DNA from: Ignavibacteriales bacterium
Lineage (GTDB): Bacteria > Bacteroidota > Ignavibacteria > Ignavibacteriales > Ignavibacteriaceae
Direction of reading: 5' to 3'
Assembly (NCBI GenBank): GCA_012517155.1
Contig: JAAYVN010000019.1
Span: 1-45,029 of the forward strand
Length of the DNA stretch: 45,029 bases
Shown: piece after piece, positions 23,560-32,703 of the stretch
How the letters are laid out: every line of letters begins with the position of its first letter
Position numbering within the stretch: the first letter of the stretch is position 1
Made by a program: the position numbers and the translations under genes
Notes under the pieces: model-generated
What the model saw: only the letters and a program-made list of their open reading frames with translations
Told to the model about the DNA's origin: nothing
The model's database searches: none

Positions 23560-24585
23560 ATGAACCTGATTACAATAATTCTGTTGCTCCCTCTTCTCGC
23601 AATAATTATTGTTCTCTTTTTGATTCCTGAACGCGGACTCTTTTCTTTCTCAAGAAAAGCCAAAAGGGATCATGAGAGAATAATAGTCGAGGATTCCCTT
23701 AAGCACATTTTCGATTGCGAACACAACAACGAGATCCCCTCTCTTTCTTCTCTATCAAAACACCTCTCCGCTTCAATGGAAAAAACCAGACAGGTGCTCC
23801 ATAAACTTAAGGAAATAGGCCTCATACACTATAAGGAAAATTCTTTTAATCTTACTCCTGAAGGTAAGATCTATGCCCTGCGCGTTATAAGAATACACCG
23901 CCTCCTCGAAAAATACCTGGCTGATTCAACCGGGGTTAATGAAGCCGACTGGCATTCCCATGCCGAGGATCGTGAACATCTTATCTCTTATGAAGAAGCT
24001 AATCGCCTCGCCTCCCGTATGGGCAACCCACTTTTTGATCCGCACGGAGATCCTATCCCAACTGCCGAGGGTAAAATGCCTGAAATTGTTAATCTGCTTC
24101 TCACTAACCTCAAAGTTAATGACTTCGCTCAAATCGCTCACATTGAGGATGAGCCTAAATCTGTTTACTCTGCTATAATTTCATTGGGATTGTCTGTTGG
24201 AATGGTTTTTCGTATTGATAAAGTCTCCTTAGACTCAATAAAAATAGAATCCAATGGGATATTTTATGATGTTGTTAAATCATTATCTGATAATATTTCC
24301 GTTAATCTGTTAACCGAAACTGAAAGCATCGTAAAAAACCTCGTCCCTCTTACTGCCTTGAAACTTAATGAAAATGCTCTTATCTACTCTCTTTCTAAAA
24401 CTCTCCGCGGTGAGCAGCGCAGAAGAATTATGGATTTTGGTATTGTCCCTGGCACCAAAATTACTCCCGTGCTTCATAGTCTCGGTAAGGATCCAACAGC
24501 ATATTCTGTCAGAAATACTACTATTGCTCTTAGAAAACACCAGGCTAATCAGATTCTCGTAAGAAGGATTAAATCAGATGCCTGA
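23560..24585 (+). CDS. Membrane-anchored DtxR/MntR-type regulator fused to FeoA
   Basis: The 341-residue protein has an unusual order. Residues about 2-25 are a hydrophobic anchor (LITIILLLPLLAIIIVLFLI). About 45-110 is a DtxR-type winged helix (SLSKHLSASMEKTRQVLHKL, LTPEGKIYALRVIRIHRLLE). About 115-160 is the metal-binding and dimerisation segment (HSHAEDREHLISYEEAN). The C-terminal 75 residues are a FeoA-like SH3 domain (MDFGIVPGTKITPVL). It overlaps feoB by 8 bases. A ferrous-iron-sensing regulator of Feo uptake that also supplies FeoA is the simplest reading. How a membrane anchor fits with DNA binding is unclear. Confidence 0.85.
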   Translation: MNLITIILLLPLLAIIIVLFLIPERGLFSFSRKAKRDHERIIVEDSLKHIFDCEHNNEIPSLSSLSKHLSASMEKTRQVLHKLKEIGLIHYKENSFNLTPEGKIYALRVIRIHRLLEKYLADSTGVNEADWHSHAEDREHLISYEEANRLASRMGNPLFDPHGDPIPTAEGKMPEIVNLLLTNLKVNDFAQIAHIEDEPKSVYSAIISLGLSVGMVFRIDKVSLDSIKIESNGIFYDVVKSLSDNISVNLLTETESIVKNLVPLTALKLNENALIYSLSKTLRGEQRRRIMDFGIVPGTKITPVLHSLGKDPTAYSVRNTTIALRKHQANQILVRRIKSDA

Positions 24586-25366
24586 TAATAATAACTGTAT
24601 AAATTGTCCCGCTTATAACTCCGGGAACCTTGTTAAACTCGGTATAAATATGACCGACTTTGATTACGTGGTGGCCCTTGCCGGTAATCCTAATACTGGA
24701 AAAAGTACTGTCTTTAATAATCTTACCGGTCTCCGCCAGCATACTGGTAACTGGCCTGGTAAAACGGTCGCACGAGCTGAGGGTGCTTTTGCCTATAATG
24801 AAAAGAAATTTAAAATTGTCGACCTACCCGGAACGTATTCTCTTCTCTCTACCAGTACTGATGAGGAAATAGCTCGTGATTTTATTCTCTTCGGTCAACC
24901 CGATGTTACAGTTGTGGTAATTGATGCAACTAGAATTGAACGGAATCTCAATATGGTTCTTCAGGTGCTTGAGATTACCGATAAAGCTGTTCTTTGCCTT
25001 AATCTTGTTGACGAGGCAAAAAGACATAATATCACAATTGATGACCGTGCTTTGTCTCGCGAACTAGGCATTCCGGTTGTTCCCTCCGCTGCAAGACAAC
25101 GGGTTGGAATGCCCGAACTGCTTAATTTTATATTTCAGGTTGCTGCTGGTGAATATATCTGCAAACCAAGAAGAATTTCAAGTGATTCGAAATCTTTCAA
25201 CACTGCTGTGGATAAACTCGTTTCTGAAATTGAAAAGGAATTCCCGGGCTTGCCTAATGCCAGATGGGTTGCCCTCCGCCTTCTTGAAGGTGACCAAAAA
25301 ATAATTGACTCTATTAAAAATGGGGAGTTGGTTAATCTGGTTAAAAATAATTATTATACTTCATGA
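24578..25366 (+). CDS. feoB: FeoB, N-terminal GTPase and GDI part
   Basis: The 262-residue product is the cytosolic half of ferrous iron transporter FeoB. A short Cys-bearing leader (NCINCPAYN) precedes the G domain with GNPNTGKST (G1), TGNWPGKTV (G2), DLPGTYSL (G3) and NLVDEAKR (G4), followed by the helical GDI region. It ends at TGA 25364-25366, 7 bp before the second part begins in another frame. It is either a naturally split FeoB or a frameshifted one; all expected segments of this half are present. Confidence 0.92.
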   Translation: MPDNNNCINCPAYNSGNLVKLGINMTDFDYVVALAGNPNTGKSTVFNNLTGLRQHTGNWPGKTVARAEGAFAYNEKKFKIVDLPGTYSLLSTSTDEEIARDFILFGQPDVTVVVIDATRIERNLNMVLQVLEITDKAVLCLNLVDEAKRHNITIDDRALSRELGIPVVPSAARQRVGMPELLNFIFQVAAGEYICKPRRISSDSKSFNTAVDKLVSEIEKEFPGLPNARWVALRLLEGDQKIIDSIKNGELVNLVKNNYYTS

Positions 25367-25373
25367 TTTGATT

Positions 25374-26798
25374 ATGGCTGAAACTCTTAACCCAAAAGAA
25401 AAATTACTCAATACCGCAAACGAATTACGTTGGGAAGTTGGAGAAAATTTCCACGATACTCTTTTGGAATCAATATATAAAAATGCAGCGGATATTACCG
25501 CTCTTACTGTTAATCATGATAATAAAGGAAGAAAATACAATTTTGATTCCGTAGTGGATAAAGTGGTTACCAGCCGTTTGCTCGGCTTCCCTATAATGTT
25601 CCTCCTGCTTGCTCTTGTCTTTTGGCTTACTATTGCCGGCGCTAATTACCCTTCTCGCTTTCTCTCTTTTATCCTGATTGATAATATCCACCCGTTTTTA
25701 AAGGACTTATTATTCTTCTTAAACTCCCCCTGGTGGCTTACTGGTTTGATTCTGGATGGCGCTTACCTTGCTTCTGCCTGGGTTGTAAGTGTTATGCTCC
25801 CTCCTATGGCTATTTTCTTTCCTGTTTTCACTCTCCTCGAAGATTACGGTTATCTCCCTCGCGTTGCTTTTAATATGGATAGTCTCTTCAGAAAAGCCGG
25901 GGCACATGGTAAACAAGCCCTTACTATGACTATGGGTTTTGGTTGTAATGCTGCGGGTGTCGTTGCCGCGAGGATTATCGACTCTCCACGCGAACGGCTC
26001 ATCGCTATAATTACTAATAACTTCTCCCTTTGTAATGGTCGCTGGCCTACCCAGATTCTTATCGCTACCATCTTTATCGGCGGTGCAGTATCTCCTCATC
26101 TTGCTGGTTTCGTAACTGCTGCTGCTGTTGTGTTTGTTGCTGTTTTGGGAATTCTTTTTAGTCTTATTGTCTCTTGGACTCTTTCTAAAACTGCGCTGAA
26201 AGGGGAGGCTTCGGCTTTTAGTCTTGAACTTCCTCCATATAGACCGCCAAGAATTCTGCAGACTTTATATACTTCTTTAATTGACAGAACTCTTATTGTT
26301 CTTTGGCGTGCGGTAGTTTTTGCTCTCCCCTCCGGTATCGTTATCTGGTTGGTTGCTAATTTAACTGTTGGGGGCTACAGTATAGCAGCTTATATGATAA
26401 ACTGGCTGGATCCCCTCGCTTTTATTATCGGACTTAATGGCGTAATTCTTTTGGCTTATATTATCGCTATACCGGCAAATGAAATCGTTATTCCAACTAT
26501 TCTGATGCTCACTGTGCTTGTCACTGGTAATGATTCTGCTGGCGCTGGTGCAGGGGTCCTTTTTGAAATTGATTCTGCATCTCAAACTGGCAATCTTCTT
26601 ATATCTTCCGGTTGGACTCTTCTTACCGGTATGAATTTAATGCTCTTTAGTTTGCTCCATAATCCCTGCTCTACTACCATCTATACTATTTATAAAGAAA
26701 CAAAAAGTCTGCTCTGGACTTTTGTTTCATCTGTTCTGCCGATTTTAATAGGATTTGTTATATGCTTTTTGGTAACTCTGATTTATCGGGCACTATAA
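25374..26798 (+). CDS. feoB: FeoB, membrane transport part
   Basis: From ATG 25374 this codes for 474 residues. A short soluble end of the GDI/linker (ESIYKNAADITALTV) is followed by about eight membrane helices with the two Gate regions. FeoB hallmarks are LLEDYGYLPRVAFNMDSLF, TMGFGCNAAGVVAARII, and NNFSLCNGRWPTQ, the latter two holding conserved Cys. The frame is open further upstream (25305), overlapping the first part, so a frameshift could also join them. No ribosome site is visible before the ATG; TTG 25368 is an alternative start. Paired GTPase and membrane genes like this are known in other bacteria. Confidence 0.9.
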   Translation: MAETLNPKEKLLNTANELRWEVGENFHDTLLESIYKNAADITALTVNHDNKGRKYNFDSVVDKVVTSRLLGFPIMFLLLALVFWLTIAGANYPSRFLSFILIDNIHPFLKDLLFFLNSPWWLTGLILDGAYLASAWVVSVMLPPMAIFFPVFTLLEDYGYLPRVAFNMDSLFRKAGAHGKQALTMTMGFGCNAAGVVAARIIDSPRERLIAIITNNFSLCNGRWPTQILIATIFIGGAVSPHLAGFVTAAAVVFVAVLGILFSLIVSWTLSKTALKGEASAFSLELPPYRPPRILQTLYTSLIDRTLIVLWRAVVFALPSGIVIWLVANLTVGGYSIAAYMINWLDPLAFIIGLNGVILLAYIIAIPANEIVIPTILMLTVLVTGNDSAGAGAGVLFEIDSASQTGNLLISSGWTLLTGMNLMLFSLLHNPCSTTIYTIYKETKSLLWTFVSSVLPILIGFVICFLVTLIYRAL

Positions 26799-26875
26799 AT
26801 TCTCTCCACACTATTTAAAATAAGTTATATAATATATATTTAAAATTACTTATTATTATTATTATCTTGTTGATA

Positions 26876-26884
26876 TGTGAATAA
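26876..26884 (-). promoter_or_regulatory. DnaA box
   Basis: TTATTCACA on the minus strand, a perfect fit to TTATNCACA. It is the box closest to the triplet-rich, AT-rich stretch. Confidence 0.85.
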
Positions 26885-26936
26885 ATCTGGAATTCCGTTA
26901 TTAGGCTAATTAAAATGTGTTTTCACAAAAAAAAGA

Positions 26937-26945
26937 TGTGGATAA
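26937..26945 (-). promoter_or_regulatory. DnaA box
   Basis: TTATCCACA on the minus strand, the strongest consensus form. It has the same orientation as its two neighbours. Confidence 0.9.
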
Positions 26946-26976
26946 AGCACACGATGTCTAAAGACTGCTCGGAATA

Positions 26977-26985
26977 TGTGGATAA
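26977..26985 (-). promoter_or_regulatory. DnaA box
   Basis: TTATCCACA on the minus strand, spaced 40 bp from the previous box. Confidence 0.9.
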
Positions 26986-27036
26986 ATATAGGTTGTTAAC
27001 ACAAAAAACAGTGGAAATCAACAGGTTATTAACACA

Positions 27037-28440
27037 TTATAAACAAGCAATTTCTACCTTGTTTTTTAAGGTGTTTATAACTTCCCTCGTCTTGGAATCC
27101 CTTATCACCATCTCTTCTATTGCCGCACATGAGTGAATTACTGTGGAATGATCCCGCCCGCCAAAATGAAGACCTATGGTTTTTAATGACGACTTCGTCA
27201 TCTCTTTCGAAATGTACATACACACCTGACGCGCAAAAACAACCTCGGCTTTTCTGGTTTTCTCCCTCACTTTGTCTTCTTCTACACCGAGATGAGCGCA
27301 TACTATCTGAGTAATAATATCTATGCTTACTTGGACCTTTCGTGATGTGGATATCTCCCTGACTATTTTTTTGGTAATGTCTAAATCAATCTCTTTAGAA
27401 CTAATAGCCATGTATGCGAGTAGTTTTATTAAACATCCTTCAAGCTCCCGGATGTTCGATGTTATGTGGGTAGCAATATACTCGATTATATGCAAGCTTA
27501 AAAACATATTAAGTCGCTCAGCTTTGGAGGTTAGTATCGCAATACGCGTTTCCAGGTCTGGTGGTTGAATGTCCGCCGTTAAACCCCAATTGAATCGGGA
27601 TATCATTCTGTCATCAAGTCCTTTTAGATCTTTTGGTGGCTTGTCACTGGTAAGTATTATTTGCTTTTTTGACTGATGCAGGGTGTTAAAAATATTGAAG
27701 AAAAGATCTTGTGTTTTATCTTTACCAACTAGCGATTGAATATCATCAATTATAAGCACGTCTATACTTCTGTAAAAGTTGGAAAACTCGTTCTGCTCAT
27801 TCTTTGAAATTGCTTCAACAAAATCTATTGTGAATTGTCCGGCAGAGGTATAACGGACTTTCTTCTCCGGCCACGATTCGAGTATTCTGTTTCCAATTGC
27901 TTGGACTAGGTGCGTTTTTCCAAGACCCACCCCGCCATATACAAAAAATGGATTGAAAGATGTGCCTCCTGGATTCTCGCTTATCGCTTGTGCTGCTGCT
28001 CTGGCAAGTTGATTCCCCTCTCCTTTAATGAAATTATCAAAAGTATAAAGCGTGTTCAGTTTTGAATCAAAATGATTTCGGCTTTTATCGGGTTTAACTT
28101 CTGTAACGGGATCTATCTTAATTGGCTCACTTTCCACGTGAAAATCGCTCTCTTCGGTATCGCTGGCAATTAAATAGCTTAATTCTGCCTTTTCACCTAA
28201 AGCATTTTTAACAGATCTGTCGATAAGTGTCTTATAATGCTCATCCAGCCATTCATAGAAAAAACTACCGGGTAGCTTAACCGTTAAACGGTTGTTTGTA
28301 TAACTTACCGGCTTTATTGGCGCAAACCAGGTACTGAAAGTTATTGGTGGTAGTGTTTCCTTAATTGGTATAAGACATTGTTTCCAAAGAAGTTCCGCTT
28401 CTTTATCGGTAGTATTGGTAATCTCAGTAACGCTTAACAT
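27037..28440 (-). CDS. dnaA: Chromosomal replication initiator protein DnaA
   Basis: The 467-residue protein has all four DnaA domains: the N-terminal interaction domain (LLWKQCLIPIKETLPPITFS), a variable linker (about 95-130), the AAA+ domain with Walker A GGVGLGKTH at 169-177 and Walker B VLIIDDIQSL, and the C-terminal box-binding domain with the signature FGGRDHSTVIHSC. It binds the boxes found on both sides of the gene. dnaN and recF, common neighbours, are absent; feoB follows instead. A perfect DnaA box lies four bases before the start codon, which suggests autoregulation. Confidence 0.98.
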   Translation of the reverse strand: MLSVTEITNTTDKEAELLWKQCLIPIKETLPPITFSTWFAPIKPVSYTNNRLTVKLPGSFFYEWLDEHYKTLIDRSVKNALGEKAELSYLIASDTEESDFHVESEPIKIDPVTEVKPDKSRNHFDSKLNTLYTFDNFIKGEGNQLARAAAQAISENPGGTSFNPFFVYGGVGLGKTHLVQAIGNRILESWPEKKVRYTSAGQFTIDFVEAISKNEQNEFSNFYRSIDVLIIDDIQSLVGKDKTQDLFFNIFNTLHQSKKQIILTSDKPPKDLKGLDDRMISRFNWGLTADIQPPDLETRIAILTSKAERLNMFLSLHIIEYIATHITSNIRELEGCLIKLLAYMAISSKEIDLDITKKIVREISTSRKVQVSIDIITQIVCAHLGVEEDKVREKTRKAEVVFARQVCMYISKEMTKSSLKTIGLHFGGRDHSTVIHSCAAIEEMVIRDSKTREVINTLKNKVEIACL

Positions 28441-28443
28441 TAG

Positions 28444-28452
28444 TTATCCACA
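28444..28452 (+). promoter_or_regulatory. DnaA box upstream of dnaA
   Basis: TTATCCACA on the plus strand, with its edge 3 bp from the dnaA start codon. It may both regulate dnaA and belong to the origin. Confidence 0.9.
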
Positions 28453-28642
28453 ATCAAAACTCATTTATTTTATAATTTATATGTTAATTTTTAATTTTCA
28501 AATTAAAGACCTCAGCATTTCCACAAGTTGTTAACATTTAACCGGGGCGCATAACTCTTTTATTTTTAAGCACTTATAAAACATTTGTGAAAATTTCTAA
28601 CAAATGCAAGCTTATAAGTCGCTATTTTGAAATTCTGGATTT

Positions 28643-28659
28643 TGTGAAACAGTTTCACA
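28643..28659. repeat. Palindrome of turned-out parS half-sites
   Basis: TGTGAAAC, A, GTTTCACA is a perfect 8-1-8 inverted repeat, 8 bp from a DnaA box. Its arms match the parS arms, but in the reverse arrangement (GTGAAAC then GTTTCAC), so it is not a normal parS. It may be a regulator site or chance. Confidence 0.5.
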
Positions 28660-28667
28660 TTTCGAAG

Positions 28668-28676
28668 TTATCCACA
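28668..28676 (+). promoter_or_regulatory. DnaA box
   Basis: TTATCCACA on the plus strand, followed 2 bp later by a near-perfect box. Confidence 0.9.
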
Positions 28677-28678
28677 AT

Positions 28679-28687
28679 TTGTCCACA
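28679..28687 (+). promoter_or_regulatory. DnaA box, 8 of 9
   Basis: TTGTCCACA on the plus strand, one mismatch to consensus and an 11-bp pitch from the box at 28668, so both would face the same side of the helix. Confidence 0.7.
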
Positions 28688-29015
28688 GATAATTTCTCCC
28701 ACTGGTTATTACAAATTTACAACTCTTTTTCTTCTTGTCAAGAAAAAAAATCACTATTCGTATAATTATTTTTTTCTTTGCTATTATATAAAAAATTTTT
28801 TTATCTGTTCCTTTTTTTATTTTGAGAATTACCCCCCTCATTCTCATAATTGGGAGGTTTTATGGTTAAAATTTGCCCCTCTTAAATAGTTGTTAGTGGC
28901 ATTGATTTTGAACCTTTTTTGAGTTCCCGTCTTGGAATATGATCTGTTTGTTGTCCCGGGGATTTTTTGGAAATTTAAAAGTCAGTTTGTTAATCACTCT
29001 AATAAAGGAAAAAAA

Positions 29016-31157
29016 TTGAGAAAACCTATTATTTTGTTCATTTTCACCGTTTTTATTAGTATCGGAGGGGTGATTTTCGCCCAGTCAAATGAAGATTGCT
29101 TGACTTGTCACTCGGATAATGAACTTACCATGGAGAAAAATGGCAAAGAAATATCTTTGTTTGTTAATGAAAATGTGTTGAATAAATCAACACATAGACA
29201 ACTAAAGTGCATTTCTTGTCATAAAGGATTTTCTGCGGACGATTTGCCCCATAAAGAAAATATCCAACCGATAAACTGTACAATGTGTCATAAGGATGCT
29301 GCCGCAAAACACTTGTTCCACCCGCAAATGCTGCAGGATAAAGGAACCGGAAAGTCCGCCGACCTTAATTGTAAGGGTTGCCACGGAACTCACGATGTAA
29401 TGCTAACGAAAACATCCGGTGCGTTTGGGGGAAAAGAAAGCATTGCTGCTTGCGTTAAATGTCATAAGGAGGCAAACGATGCCTTTGTTCAGTCGGATCA
29501 CTACAACGCCTTAATTCAAGGGGTTAAGGGTTCGCCAACCTGTGTTTCTTGCCATAAAACGCAAATAACTAATGCTGAAGGGAGGGATCTCCTTCAGGTA
29601 AAACGTGAACAGGAAAAATTGTGCCTCTCATGCCATCTCGATAACCCGGACGTGCGCAATAAAATCCCAAATTCAGCTGCTTTTATAAATACTTACGAAC
29701 ACAGTGTCCATGGTATCGCCCTTGCTAATGGAAAAAAAGAATCGGCTAACTGCGTTGACTGCCATGGTTACCACACTATTGCAAAGGGAAATAATCCAAA
29801 ATCTTCTGTGGCAAAAATTAATGTTCCGCAAACTTGCGGAAAATGTCACGAAAAGATTACCAGGGAGTATAACGAAAGCGTTCACGGTTTAGCTGTGAAA
29901 AATAAAAACTTCGATTCACCGGTTTGTACAGACTGCCACGGCGAACATAATATCAGTGATCCTCAAGCCCCTAACTCCCCGCTGGCGTTCCAGAATGTTT
30001 CGGAAAAAATCTGTTCTCCTTGCCATAGCTCTGTACGGCTTTCTGAACGTTATGGTTTGGCAGCTGATAGGTACAGTACATTTGCAGAAAGCTATCACGG
30101 TCTTGCTTTACGCGGAGGGTCTGCTACTGTCGCAAATTGTGGAAGTTGTCACGGTGTTCATAATATTAAATCTTCTTCCGACCCAACTTCAACTGTTCAT
30201 AAAGATAACCTCGTAGCCACTTGTGGCTCCTGCCACCCGGGAGCTAATGAAAATTTTACGAAGGGAAAGATCCACGTCGATTATTCCGATAAGGAAAACG
30301 AACCCCTCCTTTATTGGATTTCGAATATCTATATAATTCTTATTCTCGTTACGATTGGTTTCATGCTGATTCATAATATGTTCGATCTGTATAGAAAAGC
30401 AAAGGTTAAACTCCTTATTCGCAGAGGGGTAATTCAGCACAAAAAACATGGACACAATCTTTATTTAAGAATGACAAAATCGGAGCGTATTCAACATGTC
30501 TCTTTGATGATCAGCTTCTTTACTTTGGTGATAACCGGTTTTATGCTTCGTTTTCCTGATGCTTGGTGGGTGCGCCACATTAGAGATTTTATCCCCGATG
30601 CTTTTGATTGGCGAAGTCTCATTCACCGCATAGCGGGTGTCGTAATGGTCGCAGCAAGCCTCTACCACATGTTCTATCTGATGTTCACTCAACGTGGCCG
30701 GCAGTTGTTTTATGACATGCTTCCGAGACTTAAGGACGCTGCAGACGCTGTGATGAACCTTAAATATAATTTCGGCTTTAGTAAAGAGAAACCTAGATTT
30801 GGACGTTTTAGCTATATTGAAAAAGTTGAGTACTTTGCCTTGATTTGGGGAACTGTCGTAATGACCATTACCGGCTTCGTAATGTGGTTCGACAATACTT
30901 TTATAGGTCTTTTCACAAAACTTGGATGGGATGTTGCCAGATTGATTCACTACTATGAAGCCTGGCTTGCATTCCTTGCTATTGTGGTCTGGCATATCTA
31001 CTATGTTATCTTCAATCCGGATAGCTATCCAATGAACCTTGCATGGATAAAAGGAACTCTTACTGAAGAGGAGATGGCAGACGACCATCCTCTGGAACTT
31101 GAAGAAATCCTGGCACAGAGAGAAAATGAAGAGGAAAAGGAAGAAAACAAAGCGTAA
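29016..31157 (+). CDS. 13-haem cytochrome c fused to a membrane cytochrome b (CbcL-like)
   Basis: From TTG 29016 (AAAGGA upstream) the product has 713 residues and a signal peptide (RKPIILFIFTVFISIGGVIF). About 415 periplasmic residues follow with 13 CxxCH haem sites. About five membrane helices then begin near residue 433 (YWISNIYIILILVTIGFML), with His-bearing helices of the hydrogenase/formate-dehydrogenase cytochrome b type (HVSLMISFF, IHRIAGVVMVAASLYH, YYEAWLAFLAIVVWHIYY). The fusion of many c haems to a dihaem b unit resembles CbcL of Geobacter, a quinol-oxidising inner-membrane protein of low-potential metal respiration. The frame extends to 28932, but that start has no leader peptide. 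Confidence 0.88.
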   Translation: MRKPIILFIFTVFISIGGVIFAQSNEDCLTCHSDNELTMEKNGKEISLFVNENVLNKSTHRQLKCISCHKGFSADDLPHKENIQPINCTMCHKDAAAKHLFHPQMLQDKGTGKSADLNCKGCHGTHDVMLTKTSGAFGGKESIAACVKCHKEANDAFVQSDHYNALIQGVKGSPTCVSCHKTQITNAEGRDLLQVKREQEKLCLSCHLDNPDVRNKIPNSAAFINTYEHSVHGIALANGKKESANCVDCHGYHTIAKGNNPKSSVAKINVPQTCGKCHEKITREYNESVHGLAVKNKNFDSPVCTDCHGEHNISDPQAPNSPLAFQNVSEKICSPCHSSVRLSERYGLAADRYSTFAESYHGLALRGGSATVANCGSCHGVHNIKSSSDPTSTVHKDNLVATCGSCHPGANENFTKGKIHVDYSDKENEPLLYWISNIYIILILVTIGFMLIHNMFDLYRKAKVKLLIRRGVIQHKKHGHNLYLRMTKSERIQHVSLMISFFTLVITGFMLRFPDAWWVRHIRDFIPDAFDWRSLIHRIAGVVMVAASLYHMFYLMFTQRGRQLFYDMLPRLKDAADAVMNLKYNFGFSKEKPRFGRFSYIEKVEYFALIWGTVVMTITGFVMWFDNTFIGLFTKLGWDVARLIHYYEAWLAFLAIVVWHIYYVIFNPDSYPMNLAWIKGTLTEEEMADDHPLELEEILAQRENEEEKEENKA

Positions 31158-31191
31158 TGGTATTAAAATAATTAATCAGAAGGAGGTTTAA

Positions 31192-32703
31192 ATGGCAAAA
31201 AGAAAATTCCCCCTTTCGTTCTATAATCCAATAACTATGTTTGGGGCAGCATTAGCTGCCGTAAGCTTCGGTCTTATTCTCTTTCTGATGGTAATAGAAA
31301 TGACTTCCGAACGCTCAAATTCTTATCTCGGTATTATTACTTTCATTATTCTTCCCGTGTTCCTGATTTTGGGACTTATACTTATAGCGTTTGGTATCAT
31401 TAGAGAAAAACGGCTTAAAAGTAAAGGCAAAATTACCGAAAGAAAATTTCCGCTCCTCGACCTTAACGATCCTCAGCACAGACGGTCACTTATTATTTTC
31501 GTTGGCACTACCATTCTTCTTCTCGCTTTCTCCGCTTTCGGTAGCTTTAAAGCTTATGAATATACGGAATCTGATGAATTCTGCGGTACCGTATGCCATA
31601 AAGTCATGGAACCCGAACATACAGCCTATCTCTTCTCCCCGCATTCTCGGGTTGGCTGCGTCCAGTGCCATATCGGCTCAGGGGCAGATTGGTTTGTTAA
31701 ATCAAAGATATCCGGATCCTATCAGGTTTACTCGGTACTCTTTAATAAATACCCCCGTCCAATTCCTACCCCGATTGAAAATCTCCGCCCCGCTCAGGAA
31801 ACTTGTGAAAAATGCCACTGGCCCAAACATTTCTTCGGTGAAAAGAAGGTTGATTATAACTACTATCTCTCTGACGAGCAGAACACAAAATCAACTTTGA
31901 CGATGATGCTTAAAACTGGCGGTGGTTATCAGGGGTTTGCAAACGCTTCCGGAATCCACTATCACATGAATATCGCTAACGAAGTGTTTTACTATACGTC
32001 CGATAAAGGCAGAACTCAAATCCCTTATATTGTGGCAAAAAATATAAATGGCAAAGTCACTGTTTATAGAGATAAATCAATAAACGATGATAAAAAATTC
32101 CCGGAAAATGATTTGAGAAAAATGGATTGTATTGACTGCCATAACCGTCCGTCACACGTCTATAACCAGCCGGATAAAATGGTTAATCTGTACCTTTCTG
32201 CCGGAATGATAGATGCTTCAATCCCGTTTATTAAAAGCATTGGCGTACAAGCTCTCGAACAACCGCAGACTAAACGCGAATCTGCCATAAAGAATATTGA
32301 GGAGTTTATCTCTTCGTTTTATAAAAACCATTACCCGCAGGTGTGGAAAGAAAAACAATCAGGCATCGAAACAGCCGTTAAAAAAGTAATCGAAATTTAT
32401 AACCGTAGCTACTTCCCCGAGATGAAAGTGAGCTGGCGTGAATACCCGGTTAACCTTGGACACATGTATTCAAACGGTTGCTTTAGATGTCACGACGGAA
32501 ATCATGTTAGTGAAGACGGAAAAACGATCTCAAATGATTGTAATGTTTGTCATACTATCACAAGACAAAAACTCCCCGATTCACAGGAAGTCGTCTCTCT
32601 CGACGGTATGGTCTTTCAGCATCCGGGTAATCCTGAATTCGGAATAGAAGGACAACTTTGCATTGATTGCCACGGGGCCAAAAAAACAAGGAAAGAGGGA
32701 TAG
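31192..32703 (+). CDS. NapC/NirT-type membrane multihaem cytochrome c, seven haem sites
   Basis: The 503-residue protein has three hydrophobic segments (about 14-40, 45-70, 100-120), then a periplasmic domain with six CxxCH sites (CVQCH, CEKCH, CIDCH, CFRCH, CNVCH, CIDCH). A seventh site has three spacer residues, CGTVCH. The FCGTVCHKVMEPEHTAY start resembles the first haem region of NapC/NirT/NrfH-like quinol dehydrogenases. Seven haems behind a membrane anchor also recall ImcH. It lies 34 bp after the 13-haem gene with a strong AAGGAGGT site, so both are probably co-expressed and offer two routes from the quinone pool to the periplasm. Confidence 0.88.
   Translation: MAKRKFPLSFYNPITMFGAALAAVSFGLILFLMVIEMTSERSNSYLGIITFIILPVFLILGLILIAFGIIREKRLKSKGKITERKFPLLDLNDPQHRRSLIIFVGTTILLLAFSAFGSFKAYEYTESDEFCGTVCHKVMEPEHTAYLFSPHSRVGCVQCHIGSGADWFVKSKISGSYQVYSVLFNKYPRPIPTPIENLRPAQETCEKCHWPKHFFGEKKVDYNYYLSDEQNTKSTLTMMLKTGGGYQGFANASGIHYHMNIANEVFYYTSDKGRTQIPYIVAKNINGKVTVYRDKSINDDKKFPENDLRKMDCIDCHNRPSHVYNQPDKMVNLYLSAGMIDASIPFIKSIGVQALEQPQTKRESAIKNIEEFISSFYKNHYPQVWKEKQSGIETAVKKVIEIYNRSYFPEMKVSWREYPVNLGHMYSNGCFRCHDGNHVSEDGKTISNDCNVCHTITRQKLPDSQEVVSLDGMVFQHPGNPEFGIEGQLCIDCHGAKKTRKEG

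Follow-up and report, generated by a model that had tools for sequence, protein, structure and literature searches.

Origins of replication located beside dnaA, modules built of DnaA boxes and DnaA-trios, and origins located away from dnaA are already known. In the published description of the basal unwinding system (BUS; PMC8287927), one or more DnaA boxes are followed by a spacer and at least three NAN triplets. For Helicobacter pylori, it has been reported that no opening occurs once the polarity of the triplets is reversed or their variable letters are randomised (PMC8235120). At the oriC of Escherichia coli, left and right DnaA subcomplexes have been described on oppositely oriented boxes, facing each other (PMC10316083). 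An oriC of 303 bp, situated between dnaA and dnaN, has also been predicted for Melioribacter roseus (PMC3534657); the passages of that report concerned with the prediction make no mention of triplets or of a mirror arm. In a further literature search, no match among those listed contained the word Ignavibacter.

The DNA analysed in this study (hereafter, the window) is a stretch of 45,029 bases, which represents the entire contig C77 of a draft genome (G000) of 3,285,886 bases in 160 contigs. The name Ignavibacteriales is used for the group with which it was compared, as the closest named DnaA loci are mostly assigned to Ignavibacteria, Ignavibacteriales or Ignavibacteriaceae, and a few only to Bacteroidetes. 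The following features surround dnaA (R1 is a sequence profile described below):

24578-26798, plus strand: feoB, two overlapping ORFs, convergent with dnaA and in the place of dnaN (matches to parts of TIGR00437, each below the whole-protein cut-off).
26802-26810, plus strand: decayed inverted DnaA box CTCTCCACA with two mismatches (2.6 bits), a putative remnant of the mirror arm.
26811-26849, no strand: AT-rich core of the putative unwinding element, which R1 aligns with its counterpart in 55 relatives.
26850-26865, minus strand: triplet run ATAATAATAATAATAA as read on the strand of the boxes, equivalent to five NAN triplets on the opposite strand (candidate DnaA-trios whose letters are unusual).
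26868-26876, minus strand: second tandem DnaA box ATATCAACA, which overlaps TTATTCACA by one base.
26868-26884, minus strand: tandem DnaA boxes TTATTCACA and ATATCAACA with one base in common, the putative platform of the unwinding module.
26937-26945, minus strand: DnaA box 61 bp ahead of the module, exact consensus.
26977-26985, minus strand: DnaA box 101 bp ahead of the module, exact consensus.
27026-27034, plus strand: inverted DnaA box TTATTAACA, close to the dnaA end and 150 bp ahead of the module, where inverted boxes recur in relatives.
27037-28440, minus strand: dnaA (TIGR00362, 519.6 bits), the only family match in the genome (one PF00308 match in G000).
28444-28452, plus strand: DnaA box lying 12 bp ahead of the start of dnaA, part of an upstream array probably involved in dnaA control.
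28517-28536, plus strand: degenerate box pair ATTTCCACA and TTGTTAACA, read by eye, near the middle boxes of relatives.
28668-28687, plus strand: DnaA boxes TTATCCACA and TTGTCCACA, set 11 bp apart at 236-247 bp ahead of dnaA.

A sequence-only reading of the window had proposed a two-sided origin, with six DnaA boxes flanking dnaA, a triplet run, an AT-rich tract, and feoB rather than dnaN as the neighbouring gene. All six boxes were confirmed in place: TTATCCACA is present in its exact form at 26937(-), 26977(-), 28444(+) and 28668(+), and the two others, TTATTCACA at 26876(-) and TTGTCCACA at 28679(+), contain one mismatch each. The triplet run (26850-26865) and the AT tract (approximately 26811-26866) are likewise present. 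That reading had overlooked the overlapping box ATATCAACA, the inverted boxes TTATTAACA and CTCTCCACA, and the mirror-image arm found in relatives. The 3.29 Mb of G000 contain 70 exact boxes (compared with 16 for the pattern read backwards), four of which are found within 1.74 kb around dnaA; a cluster of this kind would arise by chance somewhere in the genome with a probability of roughly 6e-4.

The arrangement downstream of dnaA was compared with the rules given for the BUS, which allow a box with up to two mismatches and a spacer of 0-16 bp, and require three or more NAN triplets in a row on the strand opposite to that of the box sequence. In the window, the box TTATTCACA has one mismatch, the triplets begin 10 bp after it, and there are five of them; a run of this length appeared in 145 of 5000 shuffles. 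The letters, in contrast, depart from the BUS consensus (3'-GAT-5' or close variants): all five triplets read 3'-TAT-5', and no in-phase 5'-[CT]T[AT]-3' is present on the box strand of the window. The likeness to DnaA-trios proposed earlier is a loose one in the window: it holds for the order of box and triplets and for the five NAN triplets, but not for the consensus letters. Since opening is lost in H. pylori when the triplets are altered, the triplet letters of the window are of interest. The idea that these triplets represent the interior of the relatives' module turned round was rejected on comparison by eye. Nor was any obvious tie found between the triplet change and the DnaA motifs which bind boxes or single strands, when 12 proteins were aligned.

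Most relatives share a common pattern downstream of dnaA, which was first recognised by eye and then scored by a simple score: two tandem boxes overlapping by one base, a gap of about 3 bp, triplets, then an AT core. Loci were evaluated when their DnaA identity was at least 53% and at least 150 bp were available downstream of dnaA; the locus set did not include the dnaA matches of G032, G037, G031, G036 and G023 or the second G046 copy. The simple score revealed the module in 60 of 73 loci, window included, and in 58 of these 60 it starts 141-272 bp past the dnaA stop codon. Following the omission of L026 (whose contig ends after 167 bp), the counting by eye of L253 (module in a shifted position) and the setting by hand of the L056 site, the module was present in 61 of the 72 evaluable loci, again including the window, and 11 were without it; the sequences counted here as bearing the module also served to derive its left-hand definition. 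The 59 relatives with a scored module, minus L241 (which holds N) and the deviant copies L059, L251 and L252, formed an alignment of 55 copies, window excluded, with the consensus TTATCAACATATTAACA nnn TTATTATTATTATTA, AT core, TAATAATAATAA nnn TGTTnATAA. The tandem pair of the window shares 16 of the 17 letters of the relatives' tandem consensus, and it is the best such place within the window.

The position of the neighbouring boxes is also conserved. Counted from the first base of the module, direct boxes occur at -64..-58 in 25 of 54 relatives and at -104..-98 in 22, compared with a mean of 0.9 and at most 8 boxes for other 7-bp windows ahead of the module; inverted boxes recur near -150, -141 and -119. 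The boxes of the window at 26937 and 26977 lie at -61 and -101, matching the phases of the relatives, and the three same-strand boxes at 26876, 26937 and 26977 can therefore be regarded as members of one conserved array.

The right-hand box played no part in defining the module, and its properties were examined in 54 representatives (58 before the merging of close DnaA rows; window and L241 excluded). An inverted box of at least 6 bits closes the AT core in 44 of the 54, compared with three for a direct box and an expectation of 7.4 in shuffles, and the mean right-hand inverted-box score lies 13 standard deviations over shuffles. The triplets of the tract are biased in a mirrored manner (TTA/TAA 191/72 in the left half and 85/159 in the right half), and in 20 of 94 matching genomes R1 hits one and the same site on either strand (E 1e-3). 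These observations indicate that the relatives' unwinding element forms an imperfect dyad, the boxes at its two ends facing inwards. Three or more NAN triplets in a row were found in 49 of 54 relatives (mean 4.9 vs 2.4 in shuffles), and three or more with consensus letters in 20 of 59 (mean 2.1 vs 0.9). The evidence for the right-arm triplets is weaker and they are less clear than those of the left arm: a strict inverted box is present in 34 of 54 copies, of which 12 contain at least three consecutive consensus-type right-arm triplets (8% in shuffles). In the window, no inverted box closing the AT core was found, the best inverted match being CTCTCCACA with 2.6 bits, and the mirror-image second arm appears to have largely decayed.

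The module was searched for with R1, a 99-position profile derived from the sequences of 55 relatives, window excluded. The top match in G000 was the module of the window (26794-26884; E 5.7e-5, 24.9 bits), followed by a match of 15.7 bits, with 150 of 1357 first-look candidates scored; within the window alone the corresponding E values were 5e-8 and 0.11. The window copy scores low for its module family. At E 1e-3, R1 matched 94 of 113 genomes of the order, a count that is not independent, since many of the matching genomes fed the profile. In 64 of these 94 genomes the module begins 161-326 bp after the dnaA profile match, on the same strand (in G067 via a 40-base part), in five it is placed on the dnaA contig at a distance of 3.2-571 kb, in 22 module and dnaA are on different contigs (where contig breaks and real separation are indistinguishable), and in three the module was matched and no dnaA was found. 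Among 60 genomes sampled from the phylum, R1 matched five of seven in the order, two of eight in the rest of the class and one of 45 elsewhere, i.e. three of the 53 outside the order. With one match in 45 other-class genomes, 10 of which gave more than 1000 first-look candidates (at most 68 scored per genome), the possibility that R1 is a mere detector of AT-rich DNA was rejected. The lone match outside the class is located in G161 (C11:306461-306552, E 1.8e-5). Of 30 more distant loci (mostly with about 50% DnaA identity or less), nine matched R1 at E 1e-3, all shortly after dnaA.

Nine genomes with a module-free dnaA, none of which contributed to R1, were used to examine separation of the two. 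The module was found elsewhere at E <1e-3 in seven of them: it adjoins dnaN in G013 (674 bp), G048 (79 bp) and G053 (80 bp), and neither dnaA nor dnaN in G007, G017, G026 and G049. In G047, the first 29 module positions were detected at the end of the retrieved locus, with three flanking boxes in phase, and in G010 the R1 search of the genome revealed no module. The G049 copy, far from dnaA, is accompanied by boxes at -152, -141, -119, -102, -91, -63, 0, 8 and 77; the flanking phases are partly kept by the copies of G048, G013 and G007, and hardly by those of G017 and G026.

The best evidence that the module is an origin was provided by G007, a single contig in which the module is located at 629,444, 570 kb from dnaA (1.20 Mb). 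Coarse sampling, performed before the module was located, had shown the GC skew to change within 0.5-0.75 Mb, well away from dnaA. Across 40 sampled stretches, the skew is -0.037 over 440-629 kb and +0.036 over 629-900 kb; the best fit was obtained at 630-640 kb, and among 422 trial origins the module ranked 2, dnaA 145 and dnaN 135. None of 2000 rotations equalled the skew fit at the module; the resolution is tens of kilobases, and the 10 kb right of the module are slightly negative (-0.009). In G056 and G025, the dnaA/module position gave the best skew fit (rank 1 of 331 and 1 of 367, respectively). Module and skew disagree in two of the five relatives examined: in G018 the best fit lies at 2.06-2.11 Mb, whereas dnaA, ranked 41 of 357, is at 2.48 Mb; in G001 it lies at 1.01 Mb, and dnaA, ranked 77 of 386, is at 1.38 Mb. 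Both are single contigs in which the sampled skew favours an origin placed at a distance of 370-420 kb from both dnaA and the module, perhaps as a result of either recent inversions or the use of an origin elsewhere. Within the 45,029-base contig of the window no lasting change of sign was observed (approximately -0.2 to -0.3 over 8-24 kb, around 0 over 24-39 kb and about -0.1 beyond), and third-position skew corrected for gene orientation was too noisy for placing origins.

The comparison shows that the module is conserved as a unit, can change its place, has DnaA boxes at fixed distances and is located at the skew switch in three of five relatives, in one of them far from dnaA. The stretch between the end of dnaA and the feoB stop codon is, with high probability, the oriC of this genome, where DnaA would open the module, and the boxes upstream of dnaA most likely belong to the control region of this gene. 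The module makes origins findable by sequence in draft genomes of the order, including some beside neither dnaA nor dnaN.

The fate of the upstream boxes bears directly on the proposed two-sided origin. In relatives they occur near -12, -90/-100 and -240/-250 in dnaA orientation and nearly all have one orientation: the upstream 300 bp contain 3.8 inverted boxes per locus and only 10 direct ones in 54 loci. Among the 54 relatives whose dnaA has the module and the 11 whose dnaA lacks it, a box is present at -22..-8 in 45 and nine, respectively, at -108..-80 in 45 and all 11 (the pair of the window falling under this threshold), and at -262..-226 in all 54 and all 11. The upstream boxes thus stay with dnaA where the module is gone, which makes dnaA control the simpler reading; a helper role is possible. 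According to the alternative, that of a true bipartite origin of the Bacillus/Helicobacter type, the downstream module opens and the box sets flanking dnaA are joined by a DnaA loop. In its favour, both clusters are present and conserved, they flank dnaA in the window, and the unwinding element (recognised by its homology to the R1 module) stands beside one of them, on the downstream side, as described for B. subtilis and H. pylori (PMC8235120, PMC13220808). However, the far upstream box is kept in all 11 loci with a module-free dnaA, and in G007 the skew switches at the distant module and not at dnaA, so that we regard a bipartite origin as rather unlikely. The two-sided proposal was therefore supported in part only, namely for its downstream half, a conserved origin module. 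A cluster of boxes at dnaA need not mark an origin.

On the other side of the module, as noted earlier, feoB is the neighbour, and dnaN of G000 was found on contig C26. The feoB stop codon is separated by 3 bp from CTCTCCACA, and thus from the module, at the place where relatives carry the inverted arm. Its two ORFs, a GTPase half and a membrane half, are in different frames, which suggests a split gene or a frameshift. No match to feoB was found next to 102 other dnaA loci, for which flanks of mostly 1.4-5 kb, and in some cases less, were compared, and the feoB-dnaA junction rests on one contig, with misassembly possible. Directly upstream of feoB, a MntR/DtxR-like regulator is encoded (23560-24585), which at 341 aa is longer than the matching regulator part. 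Beside the upstream region of dnaA lie two multiheme-cytochrome-like genes (28932-32703, matches below curated cut-offs), the first with a cytochrome-b-like end and the second NrfH-like. The displaced dnaN has neighbours which look like genes of a SpoIIE-type phosphatase, recF and a DUF721 protein; the phosphatase ORF precedes dnaN (L237, G000 C26) and a similar ORF is present near the free-standing origin of G007 (L293 4752-7094), the function of both being assigned by eye. The possibility that dnaN carried the origin away in G000 was rejected, as the 700 bp upstream of this gene contain neither the module nor an exact box; the same was found for G009, G034 and G007, and among these four genomes one-mismatch boxes occur within this distance in G000 and G007 only.

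In the DnaA tree, the window falls within a 13-row set whose support (88/86) is not firm; nine of these rows, window included, have the module at dnaA and no dnaN in the compared flank. Long DnaA branches occur in this set (WIN 1.51, G007 2.01, G026 1.81), and the origin modules there also deviate or have moved.

These features raise the question of whether the locus might be a decayed former origin, initiation having relocated after the rearrangement that brought feoB. The distal inverted arm has decayed, the triplets are unusual, and the label "no module at dnaA" requires eight changes on the DnaA tree, at least six of them forced by firm branches. On the other hand, the tandem boxes retain 16 of 17 letters, those at -61 and -101 show the exact consensus, and no better copy was found in G000 (150 of 1357 first-look candidates scored); we consider such a relocation improbable. 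Still more improbable is a datA/DARS-like locus that titrates DnaA or regulates dnaA, the origin being placed elsewhere, since, although DnaA boxes beside dnaA often regulate this gene and the skew of the window lacks a switch, an AT core and in-phase triplets are not needed for titration, G000 contains no better R1 place (150 of 1357 candidates scored), and the homologous module lies at the skew optimum in G007, G056 and G025.

If the module downstream of dnaA is the origin, as preferred here, work on Bacillus and Helicobacter suggests how it may act. DnaA-ATP would bind to the tandem boxes and grow from them onto the triplets of one strand, after which the AT core would melt and the helicase could enter. 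In relatives, we propose that the second arm would do likewise on the other strand. Taken further, this leads to a tentative model, for which we would claim less than even odds, of a two-headed element: two facing box-plus-triplet sets would share one AT core, capture opposite strands and load two helicases symmetrically, and the window would represent a variant whose second head has decayed and whose first head has changed triplets. The less clear right-arm triplets are the weak point of this model. The placement of the second helicase on the complementary strand has been called unclear, and a DnaD-bound motif has been proposed for B. subtilis (PMC10201434). Inward-facing boxes across a short AT core point to another possible answer, namely symmetric loading.

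To conclude, the element described here shares its components with several known systems and differs from each of them. No account of an inward-facing pair across one AT core, or of a dyad-symmetric unwinding element, was found in the literature searched, among the matches listed. As in the incC BUS of B. subtilis (DnaA-boxes 6/7 and DnaA-trios), the window contains DnaA boxes, a 10-bp spacer, at least three NAN triplets and then AT-rich DNA; unlike the BUS, the AT core of the relatives is closed by an inverted box facing back. Box clusters flank dnaA and the unwinding element lies downstream both here and in H. pylori, with its oriC1 and oriC2 (PMC8235120), but the two clusters of Ignavibacteriales separate in evolution, the upstream one following dnaA and the downstream one following the skew switch in G007. 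In agreement with the oriC predicted for M. roseus, G056 (inferred to be this species) has the module in the interval from dnaA to dnaN, where its skew flips, whereas the window has feoB in place of dnaN as the neighbour. The module of Ignavibacteriales also resembles the oriC of E. coli in its oppositely oriented DnaA boxes, which face each other. In E. coli the unwinding element is placed beside the box region, whereas in Ignavibacteriales it lies between the inward-facing boxes.
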